DNA of 64,000 nt from Bacteroidia bacterium (lineage in GTDB: Bacteria > Bacteroidota > Bacteroidia > CAIKAF01). This document shows positions 19,032 to 20,344 of this stretch, one piece after another. Location of the stretch: assembly GCA_016742095.1 (NCBI GenBank), contig JACVCJ010000001.1:1-64000 (forward strand). The letters run 5' to 3'. Each line of letters starts with the position of its first letter. Positions within the stretch are counted from its first letter, which is position 1. A program made the position numbers and the translations under genes. The notes under the pieces are model-generated. The model was not told the DNA's origin and ran no database searches. It saw only the letters and a list, made by a program, of their open reading frames with translations.

Positions 19032-19418
19032 TCAGCGGTTGATCTTTACCGGCTGTTTGTGCTCGTCGATCGCTACAAAGGTAAACTCGCCGCTGACGGC
19101 TTTTTCACGCTCTTCGGAATACATCTGTTCTATAAAAATGTCCACGCGTATCTTCAGGCTGGTATTGCCCAGGTAGGTCACTTTACCTATCAGTTCCACA
19201 ATGGTACCGGCGGGAATGGGCTTTTTAAAGTCGATACGGTCGCTGCTTACCGTAACCATGCGCTGACGGCAGAAACGGGTGGCGGTGATAAAGGCGGCCT
19301 CGTCCATCAGCTGCATGGCGGTGCCTCCGAAAAGGGTATCGTAATGATTGGTGGTATTGGGAAACACGGCTTTGAATATATGTGTTTCGGCCTGTCGGAT
19401 CTTTTCTTCTACGGTCAT
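19032..19418 (-). CDS. acyl-CoA thioesterase, hotdog fold
   Basis: The 128-residue protein fits the YciA/BACH type: NHYDTLFGGTAMQLMDEAAFITA holds the hotdog helix with the catalytic Asp, followed by FKKPIPAGTIVELIGKV. It hydrolyses acyl-CoA to free CoA and acid in the cytoplasm, and the chain-length preference is unknown. Its ATG overlaps the stop of the PAS gene by 4 bases, so it is translated with it and falls under the same upstream cobalamin riboswitch. Confidence 0.88.
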   Translation of the reverse strand: MTVEEKIRQAETHIFKAVFPNTTNHYDTLFGGTAMQLMDEAAFITATRFCRQRMVTVSSDRIDFKKPIPAGTIVELIGKVTYLGNTSLKIRVDIFIEQMYSEEREKAVSGEFTFVAIDEHKQPVKINR

Positions 19419-19987
19419 ATGATTTCGTTTTCGAGTGCTAAAAAATGAGTGATCTTCTGTTGATGGCGCAGCGGGAATACTTCAATACCGCAGAGGTATT
19501 CGCTGCCGTCGGCCCGGTAATTGAGCAGGCTGCTGCGGAAACGCCGGCCCGCTTCCAGTTTTTTATGTATATACGCAATTTTATGCGGACAGCTGTTCGT
19601 ACCCTGCAGGAAGGACGGTTTTTTGCCGATGGCGAACGAGGCGGGATAACCGGTCATGCGTTCGAATCCTTCGTCGGCCCAGCAGATGACGCGCTGTGCA
19701 TCGGTAAGTACCAGGGCCTGGTAGGGGCGTGTAAGAATGGCCGGCAGTTGCTTTGTCCAGTCGGCGCCGCCTGCAATGCGGCACAGTGTGTGCATAATTT
19801 CGGCATTCCCGCGTTCGGACGAAGGAGCCGCCAGGTCCCAGCACAGCAAGGGATGCTGACCAGGCCGCGGGTCTTCTATCCGGGACTGTAACTGCGTATA
19901 TTCATCCCAGCTGAGCGACATCAGGTACATATCGAGGCACATGATGCGGCTGAGTTTTTTACCGGTGTTGTTTTTTTGTGTCTGCAC
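19415..19987 (-). CDS. PAS-domain protein, LOV-like but lacking the adduct cysteine
   Basis: The protein has 190 residues from GTG at 19987; the nearest ATG is 19942. It has no signal and no output domain. An N-terminal half of about 90 residues (LCWDLAAPSSERG) precedes one PAS domain: QALVLTDAQRVICWADEGFE, then MTGYPASFAIGKKPSFLQG, then NYRADGSEYLCGIEVFPL and THFLALENEI. The GKKPSFLQG motif lines up with GRNCRFLQG of LOV photosensors, with Pro where LOV has the flavin-adduct Cys. It is therefore probably not a classical photoreceptor, though it could bind another ligand or a partner. A cobalamin riboswitch lies upstream on the same strand. Confidence 0.8.
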   Translation of the reverse strand: MQTQKNNTGKKLSRIMCLDMYLMSLSWDEYTQLQSRIEDPRPGQHPLLCWDLAAPSSERGNAEIMHTLCRIAGGADWTKQLPAILTRPYQALVLTDAQRVICWADEGFERMTGYPASFAIGKKPSFLQGTNSCPHKIAYIHKKLEAGRRFRSSLLNYRADGSEYLCGIEVFPLRHQQKITHFLALENEII

Positions 19988-20047
19988 AGTTTGTATCGTT
20001 TTTTGTATGCTCTTTAGTTTATACTACGGAGCTGTGCGGAACGGGGA

Positions 20048-20088
20048 AAGACAGGCCGGAGCCTTCGCGTGAACGAACGTCCTGCCTT
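20048..20088 (-). promoter_or_regulatory. candidate riboswitch expression platform
   Basis: On the minus strand, AAGGCAGG (20081-20088) can pair with CCTGTCTT (20048-20055; seven Watson-Crick pairs and one G-U). It can also pair perfectly with CCTGCCTT (20133-20140) in the 3' part of the cobalamin aptamer. The two pairings exclude each other. No T run follows the 20048-20088 hairpin, so the switch, if real, is not a plain intrinsic terminator. Confidence 0.45.
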
Positions 20089-20129
20089 GTGTTAACTCTG
20101 CCTCAATCCGCGAAAGCATCATTTCTGCA

Positions 20130-20292
20130 ACAAAGGCAGGTCTCCTGACTTGCACCGTTCTTACCGCCTTCCCGTCCCGCTTCCGGCAGGGCAGTGGCAT
20201 ACGGGTAAAAACCGCGGGTGCTTACAGTTACGGGACAGTTCGTGAATTGCACACGATTCCCTTTTCATCCCGCGCGTAGCGGGAACCTTTGT
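20130..20292 (-). promoter_or_regulatory. cobalamin (adenosylcobalamin-type) riboswitch aptamer
   Basis: All signature parts are present on the minus strand. The GGGAATCGTGTGCAAT and ACTGTCCCGTAACTGTAAG blocks are at 20221-20262, and GCCACTG is at 20192-20198. The B12 box AAGTCAGGAGACCTGCC is at 20135-20151. The closing stem P1 is ACAAAGG (20286-20292) with CCTTTGT (20130-20136). Seven-base P1 pairing is exact. The first gene downstream is the PAS protein at 19987; no TonB-dependent receptor or cobalamin gene is near. Confidence 0.95.
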
Positions 20293-20344
20293 CTGTATTT
20301 TTACTAAAGAGCGATGTACAAATATATAAATCTGCGGCAACTTT

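Follow-up and report, generated by a model that had tools for sequence, protein, structure and literature searches.

In the 64,000-nucleotide stretch of Bacteroidia DNA analysed here (hereafter called the window), a cobalamin riboswitch on the reverse strand is followed by the genes for a PAS protein and a 4HBT hotdog acyl-CoA thioesterase (TE) (Table 1). The Rfam covariance model RF00174 matches 20305-20118 with 115.4 bits, as compared to a gathering score of 31.5 (E 3.2e-28). The match is full length (model positions 1-189 of 189), and the aptamer core and the B12 box lie within it. This is the sole Rfam match in the whole window, and it stands alone between 19950 and 20350 at E values up to 1. 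The first-pass annotation had expected a complete element with a strong RF00174 match, and it correctly named the PAS gene and the overlapping thioesterase gene as the first genes 3′ of the riboswitch, consistent with the PF13426 and PF03061 matches. Its span, 19415-20292, covers the PAS gene, but clips the aptamer slightly and omits the thioesterase gene.

Table 1. Features of the riboswitch locus (window coordinates)
Feature	Position	Strand	Basis
Cobalamin riboswitch aptamer, complete	20118..20305	-	RF00174, 115.4 bits
Candidate -7 box TATATTTG	20319..20326	-	Read from sequence; matches TAnnTTTG; TTTA 19 bases upstream (20349-20346)
L5 loop segment CAAUUC, kissing partner of L13	20244..20249	-	Read directly; can pair with GGAUUG 20109-20104
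P13/L13 hairpin of the expression platform, UGCUU..AGGCA, loop with GGAUUG 20109-20104	20099..20118	-	Sequence
Possible switch helix, B12-box strand CCUGCCUUUGU 20140-20130 with ACAAGGCAGG 20090-20081, replacing P1	20081..20140	-	Duplex energies
PAS gene, 190 aa, GTG start at 19987, stop ending at 19415	19415..19987	-	First ORF 3′ of the riboswitch; Pfam PAS_9, PF13426, E 4.4e-9
4HBT hotdog acyl-CoA thioesterase (TE) gene, 128 aa	19032..19418	-	PF03061, E 1.9e-19; 4-base overlap with the PAS gene

Architecture of the riboswitch leader

An alpha/beta-hydrolase gene (21292-20345) ends shortly before TATATTTG, which fits TAnnTTTG, the -7 box consensus of Bacteroidota promoters. Together with the upstream TTTA, TATATTTG suggests an RNA start near 20315. 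With this box so close behind the end of the hydrolase gene, the riboswitch probably lies at the 5′ end of a transcript of its own.

How might the aptamer control the genes behind it? In the window, a kissing pair between L5 and L13 is predicted to be available, as CAAUUC is complementary to GGAUUG. Relatives have a similar GCTTTCGCG hairpin sequence behind the aptamer, and within the order, two further genomes, L054 and L055, combine CAAAUC with GGUUUG, a compensatory change in the L5-L13 contact. The computed duplex energies are -14.1 kcal/mol for the CCUGCCUUUGU/ACAAGGCAGG pairing versus -10.9 kcal/mol, and it is plausible that pairing of the 3′ strand of P1 with ACAAGGCAGG serves as the expression platform. 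No convincing terminator was seen in the riboswitch leader.

The first-pass annotation had also raised the possibility of a missed gene ahead of the PAS gene. The spacer at 20117-19988 contains no ORF of at least 60 residues and holds a 32-codon frame at most, which excludes a larger hidden gene between the aptamer and the PAS gene. This frame, MMLSRIEAELTQGRTFVHAKAPACLSPFRTAP (20122-20024, reverse strand), opens in the last bases of the aptamer and is closed by a stop ahead of the PAS gene. It could encode a leader peptide; it overlaps the P13 hairpin and was not seen in relatives.

A perfect 10-base inverted repeat, GCTCTTTAGT (20312-20303) and ACTAAAGAGC (20018-20009), flanks the entire leader, with its 3′ arm about 20 bases ahead of the PAS start codon. 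Pairing of the two arms could fold the leader into a single large hairpin. We also considered a mobile element around the riboswitch, and rejected it: the extended end GCTCTTTAGTAAA occurs once in the genome, which gives no support for a repeat family.

The PAS and thioesterase proteins

The alignment of the orthologues divides the PAS protein into an N-terminal extension, carrying the LDMYLMSLS and HPLLCWD motifs, and a single PAS domain of the LOV fold at about residues 89-190. No output domain was found in its 190 residues. The AlphaFold2 model (pLDDT 85) predicts the LOV/PAS fold, and the best matches of the modelled domain are LOV domains (Z 18.3, rmsd 1.0 over 102 residues), which are the nearest proteins in sequence as well. 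The window protein shares the fold and the FLQG and NYRKxG motifs with the LOV domains of Chloroflexus CagFbFP/CisFbFP, MrLOV, and YtvA. It differs from them in three pocket substitutions (Cys to Pro, Asn to Cys, and Gln to Glu), in its additional N-terminal extension, and in having no effector domain.

These substitutions are characteristic of the whole family. The position of the photoactive Cys (GxNCRFLQG) is Pro in 78 of 79 members, including Pro124 of the window protein. The second flavin-contacting Asn of LOV domains is Cys, and the Gln is Glu, in all 79 relatives (Cys166 and Glu186 in the window). The first flavin Asn (N156 in the window) and the Gln of FLQG are retained across the 79, and the window protein thus lacks the full Asn/Asn/Gln set. 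Since the adduct-forming Cys is replaced, canonical LOV light sensing is unlikely, and we rejected the identity of the protein as a canonical LOV photoreceptor; the first-pass idea of a PAS protein that reacts to light is unlikely to hold in the form of a canonical blue-light sensor. Judged from sequence and model, the protein is LOV-shaped but non-canonical as a photoreceptor, and its relatives form a LOV-derived family with a distinctive Pro/Cys/Glu pocket.

Could the PAS protein nevertheless bind flavin and sense redox state or light, thereby tuning methionine or B12 metabolism, with the thioesterase serving a separate function? Cobalamin is photolabile and MetE is oxidation-sensitive, and LOV domains are the closest to the PAS protein in both fold and sequence. 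According to PMC5645311, Cys-less LOV proteins can still signal via flavin photoreduction. Against this reading stand the three pocket substitutions, the missing output domain, and the retention of the PAS protein where MetE is absent, and we consider such a sensor quite unlikely.

The thioesterase consists of a single hotdog domain and clearly passes the Pfam cut-off (70.2 versus 20.6 bits for PF03061). It shares 62-68% identity with its PAS-linked counterparts in Litoribacter ruber and genome G296, and its structural and family relatives include 2gvh, 2eis, ACOT7, and YciA. At the level of regions, the NHYDTLFGG..LMDE stretch is conserved with 2gvh and 2eis; hotdog thioesterases carry Asn/Asp in the corresponding region. 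The NTTNHYDTLFGG region aligns throughout the 4HBT acyl-CoA thioesterases compared (YciA, ACOT7/ACOT12, 2gvh, and 2eis), all with the single hotdog domain. In contrast to these proteins, the window enzyme is encoded in a B12-riboswitch operon by a gene that overlaps a PAS gene, and it scores below the YciA equivalog cut-off (56.7 versus 162 bits). The breadth of the 4HBT family makes its substrate unreadable from the sequence. The four-base overlap of the two genes suggests coupled translation.

Riboswitch-linked PAS loci and the loss of metE

Next, we compared the locus with those of relatives. Full-length stand-alone PAS relatives turned up when 395 genomes of the class were searched, and one of them, in Litoribacter ruber, has the riboswitch, PAS, and thioesterase in the same order as in the window. 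A scan of 85k named genomes gave no match with the single window PAS protein as the query, and did yield PAS relatives with a three-row PAS alignment. In that scan, the order riboswitch-metE-PAS occurs in Thermoflexibacter ruber, Raineya, Pleomorphovibrio marinus, Algoriphagus aestuariicola, a Flammeovirgaceae MAG, and others, while the riboswitch directly precedes the PAS gene in A. vanfongensis, L. populi, L. ruber, and a Cyclobacteriaceae MAG. The window arrangement, with the thioesterase gene following, is found in L. ruber, L. populi, and A. vanfongensis. As the same order recurs in relatives, a chance neighbourhood of the riboswitch and the gene pair is ruled out.

In 295 genomes of the L. 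ruber family, 56 loci contain orthologous stand-alone PAS genes. A same-strand cobalamin riboswitch lies upstream in 33 of them, as compared to a chance expectation of about 0.0007 per gene, assuming two riboswitches per 5 Mb. A full metE gene separates the riboswitch from the PAS gene at 27 of these 33 loci (followed by the thioesterase gene at 19, with none beside the PAS gene at the other eight), and six have no metE. The thioesterase gene follows the PAS gene at 22 of the 33 riboswitch loci versus 3 of the 23 others (p 9e-5), and the PAS gene is present in 34 of 66 genomes with metE versus 22 of 229 without it (p 1.9e-12), both tests ignoring phylogenetic dependence. The two genes are thus very probably downstream members of a cobalamin-riboswitch regulon, of which riboswitch-metE-PAS-thioesterase is the usual form in this family.

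These comparisons partly bear out the first-pass suggestion of an unrecognised B12-linked pathway, in that the pair is a recurrent riboswitch-linked module. Rather than standing alone, the pair forms the tail end of a metE riboswitch operon. The objection that the riboswitch of relatives precedes a B12 gene, with the PAS gene a mere insertion, does not refute the suggestion: metE often intervenes, but the PAS gene is the regular next gene and is kept under the riboswitch after metE loss.

The metE-less loci are scattered among the riboswitch-metE-PAS loci on the PAS tree, where well-supported branches force at least three changes, and metE is absent from anywhere in the six L. ruber-family genomes with these loci. 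In A. vanfongensis, a 45-codon metE fossil followed by a stop lies between the riboswitch and the PAS gene (E down to 7e-18). The comparison shows that the repeated dropout of metE, at least three times with the riboswitch and PAS gene retained, leaves the riboswitch-PAS-thioesterase order found in the window. The Litoribacter PAS proteins start with MSxSQLGYxWIDSP, which resembles the MetE N-terminus at the right place and may be a scrap of metE (a weak match, E 0.06-0.2). In genome G617 (locus L275), the frame MQNHDFNYLTIESNKACKH between the riboswitch and the PAS gene may be a second, decaying relic, its metE match (E 0.35) being not significant alone. By tblastn, the window spacer 20117-19988 contains no metE relic.

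The documented loss of metE, together with the possible scrap in Litoribacter, also fits a scenario of leftover control, in which the riboswitch simply drives the next genes and the control of the PAS and thioesterase genes brings no benefit. This scenario does not easily accommodate three observations: the aptamer and L13 hairpin have stayed intact where metE was lost, the PAS gene was kept in each of at least three independent losses, and the pocket residues are invariant in 79 proteins. The pair is also found in a B12 uptake and salvage cluster with no detected riboswitch. We therefore regard leftover control as rather improbable.

No riboswitch was found within the stretch searched at 23 of the 56 PAS loci, some of which lie in clusters of the B12-uptake type or several kb from metE, and the PAS protein may accordingly have a wider role. 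In Roseivirga, the PAS and thioesterase genes lie between a BtuB-like receptor gene and a CobU-like gene, in the salvage cluster mentioned above; the CobU-like match is just under the curated cut-off, and the other neighbours were named by eye. In Pseudarcicella, the pair adjoins BtuF-like and Dph6-type ATPase genes. These neighbourhoods would suit a role of both proteins in cobalamin salvage or corrinoid handling, rather than in the relief of blocked acyl-CoA. We judge this very unlikely: metE, and not an uptake gene, is the commonest partner, and it is not obvious what a hotdog acyl-CoA thioesterase would do in salvage.

Several further neighbourhoods were observed. The PAS gene lies immediately behind BtuC/BtuD/BtuB-like genes at L308 (G691) and L154/L280 (G618), and in Roseivirga spongicola the thioesterase gene after the PAS gene is followed by CobU/CobT/CobS/CobC-like genes, named mostly by eye at all of these loci. 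Genome G296 encodes a 430-aa N-terminal half of MetE (L128, 7860-9152), followed directly by the PAS gene, a gene for a Cys-rich CWC protein, and the thioesterase gene, with no riboswitch found there; a full metE lies at another site. G659 (L301 and other copies) has three metE matches, each with a PAS match nearby, one of which is interrupted by a stop. In Mariniphaga sediminis, a PAS relative is located behind genes that by eye resemble ribonucleotide reductase and its activase; ribonucleotide reduction is another pathway with B12-dependent and B12-independent versions. In three genomes of one genus (G079, G114, and G230; L136-L138), a more distant stand-alone PAS relative adjoins a DNA polymerase IV-like gene.

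A proposed B12-shortage module and known riboswitch operons

The window genome encodes MetH with its activation domain (PF02965, E 3e-129) and methylmalonyl-CoA mutase, as well as the start of IcmF, cut by a contig end. As metE is absent from this genome, it appears to be B12-dependent for methionine, and the substrates of its B12-dependent acyl-CoA mutases would accumulate without B12. The cassette has a GC content of 0.50-0.54, close to the 0.52 of the window. The window branch is without resolution on the PAS tree, and the genomes compared include no close relative of its lineage.

On balance, we favour a B12-shortage module that would be switched on at low B12, in which the thioesterase may drain stalled acyl-CoAs and the PAS protein may act as a sensor or regulatory partner. 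The riboswitch class suggests that bound cobalamin would favour the form with P1 and the L5-L13 contact, with low expression, and that the PAS protein and thioesterase would be made when cobalamin is scarce. Without B12, methylmalonyl-CoA mutase and IcmF would stall, and propionyl-, methylmalonyl-, or isobutyryl-CoA would accumulate and tie up CoA. The thioesterase could then hydrolyse these acyl-CoAs and release free CoA. Probably translated together with the enzyme, the PAS protein may bind a small ligand in its modified LOV-type pocket. That the thioesterase drains CoA esters and the PAS protein is its partner, taken jointly, is a tentative conjecture. As for the PAS protein as a cobalamin sensor, cobalamin sensing is already done by the riboswitch.

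A more elaborate arrangement, for which we see only an outside chance, would have two layers: the riboswitch induces the thioesterase and its dedicated PAS protein, and the latter binds a metabolite or flavin in the Cys/Glu-modified pocket and gates the thioesterase (or MetE, where present). If so, acyl-CoA would be drained only once the B12-dependent mutases have truly stalled. The cultured hosts Litoribacter, Algoriphagus, Thermoflexibacter, and Roseivirga make the questions of function and pocket testable.

How does this operon compare with known ones? The usual view of B12 riboswitch regulons is that they comprise genes for uptake and synthesis as well as for B12-independent isozymes. The window shares its riboswitch class with the BtuB-like TonB receptor operons of Bacteroidota, but has no transporter gene. 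The one further RF00174 match of the window genome precedes a TonB-receptor-like gene. RF00174 matches occur in 12 of the 16 genomes searched in the order, and the relatives' riboswitches there precede genes of this kind, mostly with a lipoprotein gene next (by eye); the window copy is the exception. In a separate observation, G046, G086, and G119 each carry five to seven cobalamin riboswitches, as compared to one or two in most genomes of the class.

Mycobacterium tuberculosis metE is one example of control by a cobalamin riboswitch. B12-element metE is also known from metagenomes (PMC2211319). The riboswitch class and the regulation of metE are already known. We found no published report of a PAS protein or thioesterase with a B12 riboswitch and metE, nor of the two as regular regulon members that outlast metE, in the searchable literature, an absence that is weak evidence given that most subscription journals and RegPrecise lie outside its scope. 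The operons of the relatives resemble the known systems in the riboswitch class, in metE as the first gene, and presumably in being on when B12 is scarce, and differ from them in two added genes, PAS and thioesterase. The window operon keeps the conserved order riboswitch-(metE)-PAS-(TE), but metE, present in the operons of 27 relatives, is absent, and the PAS and thioesterase genes alone remain. A gene pair that accompanies metE and persists after its loss points to a so far undescribed facet of how bacteria cope with scarce B12, for which dealing with stalled acyl-CoAs is the most plausible candidate.
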